A stretch of 64,000 nucleotides of DNA from Leptospirales bacterium (GTDB lineage Bacteria > Spirochaetota > Leptospiria > Leptospirales > Leptonemataceae): assembly GCA_019694655.1 (NCBI GenBank), contig JAIBBN010000011.1, forward strand, positions 1 to 64,000. The letters run 5' to 3'. The number at the start of each line of letters is the position of its first letter. Position 1 is the stretch's first letter. Below the pieces are notes generated by a model. It was not told the DNA's origin and ran no database searches. It saw only the letters and a list, made by a program, of their open reading frames with translations. Below, piece by piece: positions 7,856 through 14,904 of the stretch. The translations under genes and the position numbers were made by a program.

Positions 7856-9886
7856 TCAGCCGCCGTGGCGCGGCCGAAAGTGAACAATATCGTGGAGATT
7901 GCCGCGGCGCTCGGCCGGCGGACGCCAGACAGCTTCGACCTGGAGACCGACGCGCAGATCTTTTTCGGCAATTTCTCCTACAATATGATAGATATCGTTG
8001 TTGGACCCGTCCAGGCGAATGTGCGCGAAGGTATAGGGCGGCTTCAAGGGCTGCCCGGGAAACTCCATGTAGACGGTGGTGAAGCTGGTTAGCTGGCCGG
8101 AGTTGGGAAGCTCCACCCAATCCATTGCTTCGACGAAGCAGAGACTGCAAAAGGATCGCGGGGGGCATTGCACGCGCTTGCATTTTGGACAGCGCGTGCC
8201 GTAAAAGCGCCCCTCATAAGCCATTCCCTCATAGAAGCGAGCCATTGCCTTGCCATAGACCCAGCGATAGGGCACATGGACATGACCGGGCACGCGATTG
8301 ATCAACTGCTGATTGCCGGCGTACTCCTCGATAATCTTGTGCTTCTGAATCTTGCCCGTAGCGGTGCGCGGCAGGTCGTGAACGATCTCCAGAATGCGCG
8401 GGCGCTTAAATTCAGCAACCTTCATGCGAAGGTATTTGCGCAGGTCTTTGTCGCTGGCAGCGGCGCCCGGACGCAAGATGACAAAGGCGGCCACTTCTTC
8501 GCCGTATTTCTTGTCTGGAACGCCCACCACCGCGGCATCGAGAACGGCCTCATGCTGATAGAGGACCTCTTCGATCTCTTTGGGATAGATGTTTTCCCCG
8601 CCGCGAATGATCATCTCCTTCTTGCGTCCGGAAATAAAGTAGTAACCTTCTTCGTCCCGATAGCCCAGATCGCCCGTATGCAGCCAGCCATTGGTCAACG
8701 CTTGCTCGGTCGCCTCTGGATTATTCCAGTAGCCGCGCATGACGTTGGGCCCGCGGATTACGATCTCGCCAATTTGTCCATCGGGAAGCGGTTTGTTGCC
8801 ATCATCCCAGATGGCCATTTCCTGTCCGGGGATGGCGACGCCAATGGATCCTATCTTGCGCTCTCCGTGCAGCGGATTCAGTGAAGAAACGCAGGTTCCT
8901 TCCGAAAGACCGTAGCCCTCAAGGATGCGCGCGCTAAACTTTTGTTCAAATTTTTGAAAAACTTCAACCGGCATCGGCGCGGCGCCACAAATGCAGGCCT
9001 TGAGAAAATCCAGTTTCTCGCCTTCGGTTTCGGTCATTTCATTGAGGTAGTTGTAAATCGTCGGAACCCCGCTGAAGGTCGAACAGCGGTACTTGCGCAA
9101 TGTATCAATGAAGCTGCGCGGCTTGAACATCTCTTCCAGCACCAGGGTCGCCCCGGCTTGAAGACTGGACATGACTGATGCGATTTGTGCATTCACGTGG
9201 AAGAGCGGCATGATGCAAAGGCTGACATCGCTCTGTTCGAGGCTGATCAGTTGGTGTGCGACCAGACTGTTGTAGAGGAGGTTAGCATGGTCGAGGGTAA
9301 CGCCCTTGGGATGTCCGGTGGTGCCGGAGGTATAGATCATCACCGCCAGCGTACTTTTATCGATCTTGAGTTGCGGCGCTTTCGCGCTGGCCAATAGGGG
9401 GCTGAGCGCCGTCGCGTCCGGGTAGTTCGCCTCCGCTGCTTCGGGTCCCACCAGCAGCGTCTTTTCAATGGATTGGATGCGATCCCAGACTGGCTCCAGC
9501 AGTTTCCGATAGTGTGGCGTCGTTACCAGCAAAGGAGCGCCGCAGTCGTTTAAAATGAATTCCAGTTCTTCTGACTTCAAAAGCGTGTTGATGGTTACGG
9601 CGATGGCGCCGGCATGCATCGCGCCGAAGTAGGCAAAGAGACAATCGTCTGAGTTTGGAATCAGAATCGCAACGCGGTCGCCGGGTTTGACTCCACTTGC
9701 GACAAAGACCCCGGCCTCCTGCTGTATTCGCCCTCGAAACTCGCTGTAGCTGTAGCTGCGATCCTGAAAGATCAGATAGGTCTTTGTCGGATACTGCCTG
9801 GCGCGGGATTCCAGAAGTTCATTGACGGTCTCAAACTCGGACTCAATGCGCAGAGCGGGGCCGGCTCCTTGAGATTGCGAGCTCAT
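7856..9886 (-). CDS. Acyl-CoA synthetase fused to a DUF35 (zinc ribbon plus OB-fold) domain
   Basis: A 676-residue two-part protein in one uninterrupted frame. Residues 1-525 are an ANL-family acid-CoA ligase: the ATP loop TSGTTGHPKG at 186-195, EGYGLSEG at 323-330, the TGD motif at 404-406 and the C-terminal catalytic Lys at 512 (TATGKIQK). Residues ~545-676 are a DUF35 domain with a complete zinc ribbon (C566, C569, C580, C583; CX2C-X10-CX2C) and an OB-fold. DUF35 proteins are partners of thiolase-fold enzymes. The fusion therefore links substrate activation to the two thiolase homologues upstream. Its ATG overlaps the preceding stop (ATGA). The acyl substrate is unknown. Confidence 0.93.
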   Translation of the reverse strand: MSSQSQGAGPALRIESEFETVNELLESRARQYPTKTYLIFQDRSYSYSEFRGRIQQEAGVFVASGVKPGDRVAILIPNSDDCLFAYFGAMHAGAIAVTINTLLKSEELEFILNDCGAPLLVTTPHYRKLLEPVWDRIQSIEKTLLVGPEAAEANYPDATALSPLLASAKAPQLKIDKSTLAVMIYTSGTTGHPKGVTLDHANLLYNSLVAHQLISLEQSDVSLCIMPLFHVNAQIASVMSSLQAGATLVLEEMFKPRSFIDTLRKYRCSTFSGVPTIYNYLNEMTETEGEKLDFLKACICGAAPMPVEVFQKFEQKFSARILEGYGLSEGTCVSSLNPLHGERKIGSIGVAIPGQEMAIWDDGNKPLPDGQIGEIVIRGPNVMRGYWNNPEATEQALTNGWLHTGDLGYRDEEGYYFISGRKKEMIIRGGENIYPKEIEEVLYQHEAVLDAAVVGVPDKKYGEEVAAFVILRPGAAASDKDLRKYLRMKVAEFKRPRILEIVHDLPRTATGKIQKHKIIEEYAGNQQLINRVPGHVHVPYRWVYGKAMARFYEGMAYEGRFYGTRCPKCKRVQCPPRSFCSLCFVEAMDWVELPNSGQLTSFTTVYMEFPGQPLKPPYTFAHIRLDGSNNDIYHIVGEIAEKDLRVGLQVEAVWRPPAERRGNLHDIVHFRPRHGG

Positions 9887-10383
9887 GCTGCGCCTCCGGT
9901 CGTTGCTGGAGTAAAGAAGTCAATGTCTCGAATGGTTCCGCTGCGCGGTTCCTTCCAGCGAATCTGTAGCGCGGCGCCGGGCTGGAGCGCCATAAGCTCA
10001 GCGCGCGACGCGACAACCAGATGAATAAGATCGGTGTCGGCGCCGGGAAATCGTATGGCGGCGAGCATGTATGGCGGCTTCAAGCCTTCGGGAAGATTCC
10101 AGGGCGCCCGGTCAACAACCGTTCCGGCCGAAAGCGTTGGCTGTCCTTGCAAGGTCAAATAGCGATCCATGGCAACTGGCGCCGCCGGCGACCAGGCTTG
10201 CGGCGGAAGAAATACCCGGGAGGTCCGCGGACAGCGCACTGCAAGGATTTCACGATCATCGCGCAGCCGGGTTAGGAATCGGCCAATGACCGGGCCGGGA
10301 TTCCAGATATAGTCGTTATCGATTTCGCCGGGCAACACCTGAATAGCGCGACGCTCCGCTGGTTTTTCCTGATCCTGGCTCAT
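9883..10383 (-). CDS. DUF35 OB-fold protein with a degenerate zinc ribbon
   Basis: A 166-residue DUF35 protein. The OB-fold half is clear (GTVVDRAPWN, KPPYMLAAIRFPGADTDLIH, then a PGAALQIRW strand). The zinc ribbon that should precede it keeps one cysteine (VRCPRTSRVFLPPQ) and has lost the other three. Solo DUF35 subunits such as ChsH, BbsA and PhlB assemble with thiolase-fold partners. It overlaps its neighbours on both sides by ATGA, so stoichiometric expression with thiolase A and the ligase-DUF35 fusion is likely. It probably plays a structural role next to the intact DUF35 of the fusion. Confidence 0.85.
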   Translation of the reverse strand: MSQDQEKPAERRAIQVLPGEIDNDYIWNPGPVIGRFLTRLRDDREILAVRCPRTSRVFLPPQAWSPAAPVAMDRYLTLQGQPTLSAGTVVDRAPWNLPEGLKPPYMLAAIRFPGADTDLIHLVVASRAELMALQPGAALQIRWKEPRSGTIRDIDFFTPATTGGAA

Positions 10384-11615
10384 CGCTCTGCTCCAACCGT
10401 GCGACGTTCAGCACGCTTGCGACGCGACAGTTCAAAGTCTTGCTCGCCGCTGAGAATCATGACCGTGTGGAATTGAATAGCGCCGCCCCAGCCATGGGCC
10501 AGTCCAATCTCGGCGCCCTGCACCTGGCGATCGCCAGCTCGACCCATCAATTGCAGCGCAACTTCCGCCTGGCGAATCATTGCCGACGCGCCAATTGAAT
10601 TATTGGATAGCACGCCGCCCGAGGGATTCACTGGCAATTTGCCGTCCATGCGGATTGCGCCCTGGTCCACGAGGTCAGCGCCGTGACCGCGTTCCACAAG
10701 GCCCAGGCCCTCATACCAGATCAAATGCTGGCTGGTAAAGGCGTCGTAGATTTCCAGAACATCGAGTTCTTCCAACGGCTTCGTAATCCCAAGCTGTGAA
10801 TAGCAACGACGCGCCGCTTCGCGCTGAGCGATAGGATTGGACCAATCGCGATCTACATAATTGTAGCCCTCGGAGATTGTTGCTACGGCCTGAATCCAGG
10901 CTTTTGGCCGCTCCGATTCGCGCGCTTTTCGCGCGCTCTGGATCACCATTGCGCAAGCGGCATCGCTGGTCGGACAGCTATCCAGCAAGCGCAGCGGCGT
11001 GGACAACCAGGCCATGCCCAGCATCACCTCTTCGCTGATTTGCGGCAATTTTAGCTGCGCGTTGGGATTGTTCAGCGCATTCTTGCGCATCCATGCGCCG
11101 ATCTTTGCAAAATGGCGTTCATTCACGCTCGGAAATTGGTTCTGGTAGATGCGCGCCTGATTGGCTACAGCCGAGGGAGCGCCAGCCGCAAAGTCGCGTC
11201 CCATGGTTGGCGCATAGACCAAACTCAAACCCTTTTGCACCGAAGACTCGCTGAGTTTGTCGCCGGAAACGACCAACACGTTGTCATAGAGGCCTGACGC
11301 GGCCATGTAGTAGCCGGCAATCCCGGTTGATGCGCCAACGGTTCCCCCGGTTTGAATCCTGCAGTGTTGCTTACCAATACCAAAGGTGTGGTCGGTGGCC
11401 CACAGGTCCGGTTCGTTGACGCCTTCAAAGTATTCTGGACCGCTGCCAAAAACTACCAGATCGATGTCCTCCGGTTGCAGCTCGGCATCCTTCAATGCAA
11501 GCACACACGCTTCATGCATCATTTCCGGAAAGTTGACGTCGCGACGCTTCAGGCGCGTGATGGTCTGCCCTACGCCGGTTACAGCAGCCCTGGCAACTTG
11601 CTTTGCATCGCCCAT
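10380..11615 (-). CDS. Thiolase-fold protein without the usual catalytic Cys and His (Ltp2/SCP-x-like), 'thiolase A'
   Basis: A 411-residue thiolase-superfamily protein of the SCP-x/Ltp type. The region where thiolases carry the nucleophilic Cys reads RIQTGGTVGAS (86-96), with no Cys. The usual GHP triplet in the NPSGG loop (330-343) is replaced by NNS. It keeps YDAFT (290-294), a motif shared with Ltp2-like aldolases of steroid side-chain breakdown, where tyrosines rather than Cys are implicated. I infer a lyase, retro-aldolase or acyltransferase subunit rather than a beta-ketothiolase. It lies 2 bases after thiolase B and overlaps the DUF35 gene. Confidence 0.85.
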   Translation of the reverse strand: MGDAKQVARAAVTGVGQTITRLKRRDVNFPEMMHEACVLALKDAELQPEDIDLVVFGSGPEYFEGVNEPDLWATDHTFGIGKQHCRIQTGGTVGASTGIAGYYMAASGLYDNVLVVSGDKLSESSVQKGLSLVYAPTMGRDFAAGAPSAVANQARIYQNQFPSVNERHFAKIGAWMRKNALNNPNAQLKLPQISEEVMLGMAWLSTPLRLLDSCPTSDAACAMVIQSARKARESERPKAWIQAVATISEGYNYVDRDWSNPIAQREAARRCYSQLGITKPLEELDVLEIYDAFTSQHLIWYEGLGLVERGHGADLVDQGAIRMDGKLPVNPSGGVLSNNSIGASAMIRQAEVALQLMGRAGDRQVQGAEIGLAHGWGGAIQFHTVMILSGEQDFELSRRKRAERRTVGAER

Positions 11616-11617
11616 CC

Positions 11618-12760
11618 TCAGGCCTCCAGCACGTAGACAATATTGGCCTGCATGGCCAGTCCTGCCTGGGCATGCGCCAGCGCGCGATGCGCCTGTTTGA
11701 GCTGAACAGCGCCAGCCTCTTGCCTCAACTGTAAACTGGCTTCGAGTATGCGCCCCAGACCGGAGGCATAGATAACATGGCCGGACAGAGCGCCGCCCGA
11801 TGGGTTGATCGGACGCACGCCCTGGGCCGTCGTTGCACCGCTGCGCACATCCTCCAGCGCGCTTGCGCCGTATTTGAAACCCATCGCCTGCGCCGTCAAA
11901 ATTTGCTGGTGTGCATATAGCTCGTGGATTTCAACAAAATCGACGCTATCAATTTTGGTCCCGGCCATGCGCAGGGCCTGCGCTGTGGCAAGCTCCGCCG
12001 AAGGCGCCCGCGTCAGATCGCGATAACCGGGATAGTAGGCGTCGCTGGACATGCCGAAACCTGTTATCCACGCGGCATTTAGTTTGCGTTCACGTATGAA
12101 TTCCTCTGTAGCCAGGAAGAGGACAGTGCAGCCATCGCCAGCGCGCGCGGCGGTGGCCTTATTGATAGGCGATGCGATCGGCGCGGCAGCCAGCGCTTGA
12201 TCCACGCTCATCGCAACTCCCTCGCCGGCCATACTGCGCGGGTTAAGCGCACCCCGACTGCGATTGACCGCCGCTACTGCGGCAAAGTCATGCGCCGTCG
12301 CGCCGGATTTTTGTAAGAAGAATTGCGCCTGTAGTGCGGCGATGGAGTCGCCATCAGCGCCTACCGGACGCAGATAAAAGGGATCCGCGCCCATGCCGCT
12401 CATTGCGCTGGCGCTGCACTGTGTTGCCTTGGACTGCGCGACGATCATACAGCAGCGGAATTTCCCGGAGAGCAGCTTGATTAGCCCGTAGTGAAGCGCC
12501 CAGGCGCCATCGCGTTCCACCTTCGATTCGTCCTTCATGAAGGAGCCGGCCGGCTCCACCGTATACACATGCTGGATTGAGATTCCATCCATCACATCGT
12601 CGCCCGCCTGGACAACCGTGTCGATGTCATCAAGCGCTAGACCGGTGTTTGCGAGCGCCTGACTGACGGTAAGGAATACCGTGTCCTCTATGGAAAGGTC
12701 GAGGTTCTCGCGCTCCTGGCGAATCGCCTGGCCAACAATGCCAATTCGTGCGGGGATCAT
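11618..12760 (-). CDS. Thiolase-fold protein lacking the N-terminal nucleophile, 'thiolase B'
   Basis: First gene of the ligase/DUF35 operon, 380 residues from the ATG at 12760 (a TTG at 12826 is in frame but the operator lies between). It has a thiolase fold. The nucleophile region reads TVEPAGSFMKDESKV and has no Cys, while the C-terminal loop keeps His in NPSGGALSGHVIYASG. The HDCF-type motif is IHELY. The two thiolase homologues are too divergent to be recent duplicates, so a heteromer in which each brings part of the active site is plausible. Tandem thiolase-plus-DUF35 arrangements are known for BbsAB and, with a KAS subunit, for PhlACB. Confidence 0.83.
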   Translation of the reverse strand: MIPARIGIVGQAIRQERENLDLSIEDTVFLTVSQALANTGLALDDIDTVVQAGDDVMDGISIQHVYTVEPAGSFMKDESKVERDGAWALHYGLIKLLSGKFRCCMIVAQSKATQCSASAMSGMGADPFYLRPVGADGDSIAALQAQFFLQKSGATAHDFAAVAAVNRSRGALNPRSMAGEGVAMSVDQALAAAPIASPINKATAARAGDGCTVLFLATEEFIRERKLNAAWITGFGMSSDAYYPGYRDLTRAPSAELATAQALRMAGTKIDSVDFVEIHELYAHQQILTAQAMGFKYGASALEDVRSGATTAQGVRPINPSGGALSGHVIYASGLGRILEASLQLRQEAGAVQLKQAHRALAHAQAGLAMQANIVYVLEA

Positions 12761-12785
12761 CGTCGCTCCGGCAGCCAGCCCAATA

Positions 12786-12809
12786 TTGATTGACTTGTCA
12801 GTCAATGAA
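12786..12809. promoter_or_regulatory. Palindromic operator upstream of the thiolase/DUF35/ligase operon
   Basis: A 24-base near-palindrome, TTGATTGAC-ttgtca-GTCAATGAA, with 9 of 12 symmetric pairs matched, including the perfect inner arms TTGACT/AGTCAA. It ends 25 bases before the thiolase B start. Size and symmetry fit a TetR-family operator, such as those controlling acyl-CoA metabolism genes. A -35-like TTGACT sits inside it on the leftward strand. No repressor gene is adjacent, so the regulator would act in trans. The rest of the 12761-13008 gap holds only a GAATGCATTC palindrome at 12967-12976. Confidence 0.6.
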
Positions 12810-13008
12810 AAAGCAGGCTGCCGCAACGGCGGGTCCGGCGTATCGTGTTCAAGGTCGCTTCGATTCGGTCATTGCAGCAAAGACTCCGGAGCCTCGGCGC
12901 ATGGTGCAGATCGCCGGCAGCCATTGCGACGATGCTTCTGGCTGCGGCGCCTGCCTGAATTTGTGAGAATGCATTCATGGAGCAAGCTTCAGAGACCTGT
13001 CGGGCAAG

Positions 13009-13311
13009 ATGAACGAATACATTGAAATCGTAAGGTTCCGCCTGAATGCAGGGATTTCCGAAGAAGACATTCTGGCGGCGGAGTTACATATGGCTGCCCA
13101 TCTTAGCAGCAACTATGCAGGATATTTGGGCCGCCAATTGCTGAAGTCGGAGGATGGCGCCTGGACAGTACTGCTGCGTATGGCTTCAAAAGAGGCAATG
13201 CAGGCCCTGCTGACCGCTTTGAAGGAAGATAGGTCGGACGCGGTTCGAAATTATGTCCGCTGTGTTAACCTCAAGGAAGCGCGGATCGAGTTCTATTTGG
13301 CCGTCCGTTGA
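13009..13311 (+). CDS. Small protein, possibly a dimeric alpha/beta-barrel
   Basis: A 100-residue cytoplasmic protein, divergent from the thiolase operon. The opening strand YIEIVRFRL, a central Trp-containing strand (GAWTVLLRM) and a final strand IEFYLAV, separated by helices, resemble the ABM/DUF3291-type ferredoxin-like dimeric barrels, but no signature residue can be named. It could be an enzyme, a cyclase-like protein or a structural protein. The Shine-Dalgarno sequence is weak. It is separated from plsC by 132 bases. Confidence 0.6.
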   Translation: MNEYIEIVRFRLNAGISEEDILAAELHMAAHLSSNYAGYLGRQLLKSEDGAWTVLLRMASKEAMQALLTALKEDRSDAVRNYVRCVNLKEARIEFYLAVR

Positions 13312-13443
13312 AGTTCTAACGAGTCATTTCCGCCTGTCTCAATTTTGATTGCGGCCCCGATAGCGCGGAGCGCCGAAATTTGCCGCTACCGGGCGCTACA
13401 TTTTTTGCAACCAGCGACGGGGCTTTGCAGTCCTAAGCCAGGT

Positions 13444-14124
13444 ATGCCAATGAGCGCTCGCAATCTGGCTCGTTTCGGTCATCCCGGGCAATCGCTTTTC
13501 CTTTCGGCCCTGTGGAATGCGGTGGTGAGCATTGCGTATGCGCCTTTCTACCGCGTCCGTGTGCAGGCCGAAGCGCAGATCCCTGCAAGCGGTCCAGTAC
13601 TGATTCTCTTCAAGCATTGGTCGTTAGCGGATGTCCCATTGGGCAAGTTGGCCATCACGCGCAACAATGGGCGTCATTTGTGGTGTGTAATGAAAGAATC
13701 GCTGGCTCGCGGTCCTTTTGGAAGATTGATTTTGAAGGTAGGCGGTATTCCAATCAACCGTGACAGGCCGGAGCGCAGCCGCCGCGATTTGATGCTGGCG
13801 CGCCATGTCCTCAGCAATGGCAATATGCTCTGTGTTTTCCCGGAGCAAACGACTGTTCCCGGACGCATGGCTCGAGGTCGGGCGCCAGGCTTCCGCTTTA
13901 TTACTGCAGAAACGAATCAGGCATTGCCGGTTGTCTGCATTGGCATTCACTACAGACCTCGTCGGTTTCGCCGAACACAGGTCGATATCCGCATTGGCGA
14001 AGCGCTGCTTTTTCAGCCCGGCGATGATCCCGAAGATTTTCTGCACCGAGCCATGCATAAAATTGCTTCGCTCTCTGAACTGCAGTATCACTTTGAAAAG
14101 TCCGCAGCGCCAGTTGCATCCTGA
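13444..14124 (+). CDS. plsC: 1-acyl-sn-glycerol-3-phosphate acyltransferase family protein (PlsC-like)
   Basis: PlsC-type enzymes add the second acyl chain to lysophosphatidate at the inner membrane. From the ATG at 13444 the product has 226 residues. It shows a hydrophobic N-terminal segment, motif I H58-x4-D63 (HWSLAD), motif GGIPINRDRPERS and a motif III variant FPEQTT where FPEGTR is usual. An ATG at 13450 and a TTG at 13345 are also in frame. The altered motif III may mean a different acyl acceptor. The next gene follows in 42 bases. Confidence 0.8.
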   Translation: MPMSARNLARFGHPGQSLFLSALWNAVVSIAYAPFYRVRVQAEAQIPASGPVLILFKHWSLADVPLGKLAITRNNGRHLWCVMKESLARGPFGRLILKVGGIPINRDRPERSRRDLMLARHVLSNGNMLCVFPEQTTVPGRMARGRAPGFRFITAETNQALPVVCIGIHYRPRRFRRTQVDIRIGEALLFQPGDDPEDFLHRAMHKIASLSELQYHFEKSAAPVAS

Positions 14125-14166
14125 ATTTGAGCTTGTACCAGGCAGACCGCCGATTCCAATTGCGCT

Positions 14167-14904
14167 GTGGCCTTCAACGCCTCGCCCCAATCTATTCCGC
14201 AGCGCCGGAGCAGTAGCAGCCTCGAGTTTTCCATCGAACGACGGCGCGGTCGCCGCCGCATCGCAGTCTGCGTTTCGCCTGGCGGCCAGATCACCGTGCG
14301 TGCACCGCTGCGCACTTCGCTTAGAGAATTGGAGGAAATAGTAGCCAGACGCCGTGACTGGATTGTGCTTCAGCAACAACGGCAGCGAGCGCGGTTTCCT
14401 GGCCTGGCTGAAAAGCTATTTAAGTCCGGCGAAGTCTATTTGCTCGGCGGCAAAGAATTGCGCCTGGCGGTCTGCATTGCAGCCATTCGCCGCTGCCAGA
14501 CCAGCAGCAACGGAAGGGAGATCCTTATGCAGGCGCCGTGTACTGCTCAAATCGTGGATCGCCGGCGCTCGTTGCTGAATTGGTACCGCGCTATGGCCAC
14601 GAGCGACCTTTCACAAGTCGTAGCCAGATGGTCGCAGCGAATGGGCCTTCAACCGGCCGCCGTTTTAATTCGAGACCAGCGTTCGCGGTGGGGAAGTTGC
14701 AACGCCAGGGACGAATTGCGATTGAACTGGCGCATCGTGCAGGCGCCCGGCCTGCTGCAGGAGTACGTTGTCGTCCATGAGGTGGCGCACATCCGCCACA
14801 AAAATCACGGACCTGCTTTCTGGCAATTGGTCGCAGCTCATATCCCTGATTTCCGCGAGCGTCAGAAAGCGCTCCGCCAGCTGACGCCTTACCTGAGCTG
14901 GTAG
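14167..14904 (+). CDS. YgjP-type metallopeptidase-domain protein (DUF45)
   Basis: A 245-residue protein starting with GTG; no earlier ATG is available. Its C-terminal half is the DUF45/YgjP family, with SRWGSC at 173-178, the zinc motif H204-E-x2-H208 (HEVAH) and a third ligand H214 in NHGPAFW. The first ~90 residues are basic. The family is predicted to be zinc-dependent proteases; few are characterised. The gene ends 5 bases before the convergent gene at 14910. Confidence 0.87.
   Translation: MAFNASPQSIPQRRSSSSLEFSIERRRGRRRIAVCVSPGGQITVRAPLRTSLRELEEIVARRRDWIVLQQQRQRARFPGLAEKLFKSGEVYLLGGKELRLAVCIAAIRRCQTSSNGREILMQAPCTAQIVDRRRSLLNWYRAMATSDLSQVVARWSQRMGLQPAAVLIRDQRSRWGSCNARDELRLNWRIVQAPGLLQEYVVVHEVAHIRHKNHGPAFWQLVAAHIPDFRERQKALRQLTPYLSW

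Follow-up and report, generated by a model that had tools for sequence, protein, structure and literature searches.

FadR of Bacillus, a TetR-family regulator, recognizes a box that reads TGAATGANTANTCATTCA. It represses five fad operons, its own included, and is released from DNA by C14-C20 acyl-CoA, as stated in PMC4525379. FadP and PsrA of Proteobacteria are also TetR-family regulators of fatty-acid degradation (PMC5343134). Both belong to lineages different from that of the regulator described below. A further pair of TetR repressors, KstR and KstR2 of Actinobacteria, acts in cholesterol catabolism, where they are released by steroid-CoA thioesters and control genes of the Ltp2 and ChsH2 type. 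The proteins called FadR in Thermus thermophilus and Sulfolobus acidocaldarius are TetR-family regulators of fatty-acid metabolism as well. The Thermus consensus, TTRNACYNRGTNYAA (PMC5597230), has 15 bases and differs from the 20-base dyad found here. FadRSa of S. acidocaldarius binds the genome at no more than four sites, one of which lies in the promoter region of its own gene (PMC6449355).

The locus compared with these systems lies in a window from a Leptospirales bacterium, that is, the whole stretch of 64,000 nucleotides that was analysed. Positions 12786-12809 read TTGATTGACTTGTCAGTCAATGAA, and the inner arms TTGACT and AGTCAA occupy 12790-12795 and 12800-12805, just as described in the original prediction of a 24-base near-palindrome. 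The distance of 25 bases to the first gene of a ligase/thiolase operon was also correct, counted from an ATG at 12760 on the minus strand, which is preferred over an upstream TTG because homologues begin there. The features of the locus are as follows.

7856..9886, minus strand: acyl-CoA ligase (AMP-binding) with a C-terminal ChsH2-type zinc ribbon and OB fold (DUF35)
9883..10383, minus strand: small protein between the thiolases and the ligase, DUF35-like by eye, with no Pfam match
10380..11615, minus strand: second thiolase-fold protein, in which YDAF replaces the motif of SCP2 thiolases
11618..12760, minus strand: thiolase-fold (lipid-transfer/SCP2-type) protein, first gene, with HELY at the active-site motif
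12786..12805, minus strand: predicted operator of a TetR/FadR-like regulator encoded on contig C9, a 20-bp dyad with the minus-strand reading TTGACTGAC-AA-GTCAATCAA, based on genome uniqueness and conservation
12790..12809, no strand: second, overlapping register with an outer partial half-site TTCATTGAC, which yields the 24-base palindrome of the original prediction

The four operon genes are packed end to end on the same strand and are probably co-transcribed. A homologue of the small protein adjoins the thiolases in two relatives, and the HELY of the first thiolase-fold protein is HECY in several relatives. On the other side, 203 bases separate the end of the dyad from a divergent gene at 13009, which may also be controlled from it. 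The divergent genes (13009-14904, plus strand) encode a 100-amino-acid protein without a Pfam match, an acyltransferase (PF01553), and a YgjP-like metallopeptidase.

Base pairing differs little between the possible registers, with 8 versus 7 of 10 pairs, or 9 versus 9 of 12, for centres at 12795/12796 and 12797/12798, respectively. The dyad by itself is not better than chance, as 318 of 2000 dinucleotide-preserving shuffles of 12761-13008 equalled or beat 8 of 10 pairs. The register is instead fixed by a second site, located before a tetR gene on contig C9, which is common with the window site over TATTGATTGAC--GTCAGTCAAT and mismatches it only at the two centre bases. The best register is thus TTGAYTGAC-NN-GTCARTCAA at window positions 12786-12805, where the sequence is TTGATTGAC-TT-GTCAGTCAA, and the recurrent dyad is centred at 12795/12796, two bases away from the centre at 12797/12798 in the original prediction.

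Both patterns were searched for in the bacterium's own genome (3,916,984 bases, 95.85% complete). The 16-base pattern of the original prediction, TTGACTNNNNAGTCAA, occurred with at most one mismatch at eight places, and its reversed control also at eight, so TTGACT-4-AGTCAA was rejected as a consensus. Five of the eight places fall within ORFs, and one precedes a TetR_N gene. Many occurrences in coding sequence had been named as grounds for giving up the palindrome, and this applies in part to the 16-base pattern and not to the 20-base dyad. The exact 20-base dyad was found at only two places, the window site and C9:97921-97940 before tetR. Its next best matches, at six places, had three mismatches, with four places in the reversed control at three or fewer. 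A looser 18-base form was again exact only at the window site and before tetR and matched eight other places with two mismatches, and its reversed control gave four in all. Neighbouring genes were read at 12 of these weaker places (L033 and L036 overlap L184 and L186) and did not form a coherent lipid set, so regulon membership is not claimed for the eight sites with two mismatches or the six with three. One match to the 16-base pattern, TTGATTCTGGAGTCAA (C23:21298-21313), lies about 115 bases 5' of an acyl-CoA-dehydrogenase-like ORF. It carries one mismatch to that pattern and does not match the 20-base dyad, and was set aside.

A -35-like hexamer is present in the palindrome, as had been noted, but no sigma-70-like promoter was found by scanning 12600-13100, and a scan for a terminator-like site or hairpin at the palindrome was also negative. 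Across four thiolase leaders measured, the operator lies 17-25 bases from the start codon, a position fit for blocking transcription. No promoter was recognized next to the operator, so the sign of regulation and the geometry of repression are predicted.

The original prediction had placed the regulator elsewhere in the genome and proposed looking for a TetR gene with the same palindrome in front of it, and both points held. The genome contains 21 TetR_N genes, none of which is on the window contig (C11), and the dyad, identical except for the two centre bases, precedes just one of them (C9:97232-97864, minus strand), whose start codon is 56 bases away. The encoded protein matches PF00440 (TetR_N) at 60.7 bits against a cut-off of 24. 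Behind the gene come acd1 and acd2, both for acyl-CoA dehydrogenases, and acd1 also follows tetR in nine relatives, at 71-75% identity. The operator type is therefore common to the tetR-acd1-acd2 operon as well, and the dedicated control that had been proposed for the ligase/thiolase operon is not quite accurate.

Among solved structures, the C9 TetR is most closely related to FadR of Bacillus halodurans and B. subtilis (PDB 3WHB/3WHC, 1VI0, and 5GP9/5GPA/5GPC), with an E value of 1e-16 in a single-sequence phmmer search and 3e-25 with a profile. All top four solved relatives were FadR in both searches. Fold comparison with VIA-align used a model of the 63%-identical orthologue L102 (mean pLDDT 86.5), for which the top six rows were Bacillus FadR entries with Z of 20.3-21.8 and an rmsd of 1.9-2.2 for the best. 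Stearoyl-CoA-bound 3whc aligned with Z 21.8 and rmsd 2.2 over 189 residues at 25% identity. A putative fatty acid metabolism regulator came next (Z 20.2, about tied with the lowest FadR entry), followed by values of 19.1 or lower, and KstR2 was a weaker match than FadR (Z 18.2 versus 21.8). The best NCBIfam match was also FadR (equivalog model NF053878), but its 77.5 bits did not reach the cut-off of 200, so we name the protein FadR-like and not FadR. Other families were rejected on their model scores, namely KstR (45.8 bits against 280), RutR (TIGR03613, 41.5 against 368), and PsrA (25.2 against 300).

Bacillus FadR is thus closest to the C9 TetR in both sequence and predicted fold. As with Bacillus FadR, an exact dyad precedes the regulator's own operon, here tetR-acd1-acd2, as well as the ligase/thiolase operon, and the window operator fits the form TGAnTGAn-nn-nTCAnTCA, an 18-bp layout that may correspond to that of the Bacillus box. 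The two differ in that identity is only 24-25% in the fold alignment, with a score under the NCBIfam FadR cut-off, and that the C9 regulator has a TGAYTGAC half-site, two exact sites in the genome, and DUF35 and thiolase-fold genes among its predicted targets.

By analogy with FadR, the C9 protein would be an autoregulated, acyl-CoA-released repressor of both operons, and we consider it likely that the dyad is its operator and that long-chain (or branched or sterol-type) acyl-CoA releases it. A repressor dimer would sit on TTGAYTGAC-NN-GTCARTCAA ahead of the ligase/thiolase operon, at a distance of 25 bases from the first gene, and on the matching dyad 56 bases from the start of tetR, the regulator's own gene and the first of the tetR-acd1-acd2 operon, so that both operons would be held down when substrate is absent. 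Accumulating long-chain, branched, or sterol-like acyl-CoA would fill the C-terminal pocket and cause the dimer to leave the DNA, and the genes for the ligase, both thiolase-fold enzymes, and both acyl-CoA dehydrogenases would be induced jointly. The acyl-CoA-responsive control suggested in the original prediction is better grounded by this kinship, as an expectation by analogy.

Conservation was examined in a family set of 22 genomes. TetR orthologues (E at most 1e-20) occur in 14 of them, 13 of which entered alignment A1 (the sequence from G015, L050, was left out because a stop is marked inside the match). The dyad, with up to three mismatches, precedes tetR in 10 of the 14, and the four without a good dyad are small AT-rich genomes of genus g11. 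In these four (G012-G015; L050, L052-L054, L109-L111), the TetR has 38-41% identity. No acd1 was found in the fetched flanks of tetR in G013-G015 (L109-L111), and G013 and G015 carry a near-match of the dyad 5' of a 4HBT thioesterase gene.

Of the 22 genomes, 11 contained the dyad with at most one mismatch, at 26 places in total, and these were 11 of 14 with the TetR and 0 of 8 without (Fisher p 0.001; because the genomes are akin, five being of one genus, this and the other Fisher p values overstate independence and are indicative only). All 26 places precede a gene. Nine are before tetR and seven before the thiolase operon. Four precede an operon for a metallo-beta-lactamase-like protein, with weak NCBIfam lactonase matches, and a short-chain dehydrogenase, and two each precede another short-chain dehydrogenase and a 4HBT thioesterase. 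The remaining two are before a cholesterol-oxidase-like GMC gene and a flavin monooxygenase gene.

The first thiolase-fold gene was matched in 12 of the 22 genomes. The dyad lies within 300 bases upstream of it in 7 of 7 genomes with the TetR, counting the bacterium's own, and in 0 of 5 without (p 0.0013, indicative only), and the five TetR-lacking leaders contain no dyad even at four mismatches. G001 and G003, which lack the TetR, have the same thiolase pair as the operon described here, and no close second thiolase was found in the fetched loci of the TetR-lacking G004-G006. The leader scan gave no row for one locus at a contig edge (L097, G019), and the site in that genome was taken from L085. 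In a tally of 14 operators, the invariant columns are so partly by construction, as the operators were cut out by pattern.

In genus g12 the third half-site, that of the second register, is perfect. The operators of this genus (L080, L081, L084-L086, L105-L107) have a third overlapping half-site, TTGATTGACTGATTTGTCAATCAA, and registers with spacers of 2 and 6 are both near-perfect, so that two dimers could bind. From named genomes, 80 homologues were collected, many from Deltaproteobacteria, Myxococcota, and Actinobacteria, and 25 of the 80 loci entered alignment A2. TGANTGANNNNTCANTCA occurs just upstream with at most two mismatches in 19 of 78 homologues (two loci had too short an upstream stretch), whereas random stretches taken from these loci would be expected to give about 1.3, and seven of the 19 are leptospire-like.

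A different ligand for the C9 TetR, such as a sterol- or bile-acid-CoA, a branched or isoprenoid acyl-CoA, or a free acid, is possible, though we rate it well below an even chance. The controlled genes resemble those of side-chain cleavage, with a ligase carrying a ChsH2-type DUF35 region, and the YDAF of the second thiolase-fold protein, which is kept in relatives, stands at a position where the aligned SCP2-type thiolase has HDCF. Steroid aldolases have motifs close to YDAF, namely YDHF in Ltp2 and YDCY in Sal, and a DUF35 domain binds the latter enzyme (PMC12329534). This second "thiolase" may then be an aldolase instead of a thiolase, and the motif together with Sal's DUF35 partner suggests that the operon may carry out retro-aldol cleavage of branched or sterol-like side chains, which we offer as a lead from sequence. 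The regulator itself points the other way, being nearest to the long-chain-acyl-CoA FadR and not to KstR (77.5 versus 45.8 bits).

Leptonema illini (G011) bears on the same question. This species uses long-chain fatty acids as its carbon and energy source (PMC3746420). Its genome has four exact dyads, located before tetR (followed by acd1), the thiolase pair, a GMC gene (L077, C1:166715), and a Baeyer-Villiger-like monooxygenase gene (L079, C1:1435343). An operator before the latter two is consistent with a sterol-type ligand, but the cholesterol oxidase model that is the top NCBIfam match of the GMC protein scores 598.9 bits, under its curated cut-off of 850. The retro-aldol lead thus leaves the ligand between straight long-chain and branched or sterol-type acyl-CoA, of which straight long-chain acyl-CoA would be our first choice.

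That another TetR or MarR regulator binds the dyad, or that the regulator activates instead of repressing, appears improbable. Similar dyads do occur near other regulators. The bacterium's own genome has a three-mismatch dyad (L037, C10:15086-15105) just 5' of MarR-like and short-chain-dehydrogenase-like genes, named by eye, which is probably another regulator's own site, and a two-mismatch dyad near another TetR gene at C16:41031. Class-wide, in 48 genomes, the exact dyad was present in 8 of 14 with the TetR and 1 of 34 without (p 6e-5). The exception, G042, has no TetR orthologue and carries the exact dyad directly before a different TetR gene, which suggests that the dyad marks a class of TetR operators and is not private to one protein. 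This site, a perfect TTGACTGACCAGTCAGTCAA, stands right after a TATAAT-like box, and the TetR gene behind it is of another clade (L192, C170:5371-5390). Against another binder, only 1 of the 21 TetR genes in the bacterium's own genome has the exact dyad, and the site and the C9-type TetR co-occur across the 22 family genomes. A chance palindrome or an RNA hairpin or terminator, with no regulator involved, is very improbable and was rejected on conservation, for although shuffles often match the dyad and the 16-base pattern and its reversed control occur equally often, the dyad precedes the thiolase gene in every genome with both genes and in none without the TetR, the reversed control of the dyad (at most one mismatch) is absent from each of the 22 genomes, and no terminator-like site was found.

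The favoured reading, an operator of a FadR-type autoregulated repressor, has a more speculative extension, to which we give a low probability, in which a FadR-type TetR has been converted into a switch for sterol- or branched-chain side-chain cleavage in leptospire-like spirochaetes. If true, the breakdown of sterol-like or isoprenoid lipids in these spirochaetes would be governed by a fatty-acid-type regulator. A literature search covering titles and abstract openings did not turn up work on any FadR-like TetR, or on the regulon of one, in Leptonema or its relatives. The comparison turns a lone palindrome into a regulator-target pair with a testable consensus and a compact, conserved predicted regulon, and points to a single regulator with its operator and probable targets throughout the leptospire-like family, including the cultured type strain Leptonema illini.
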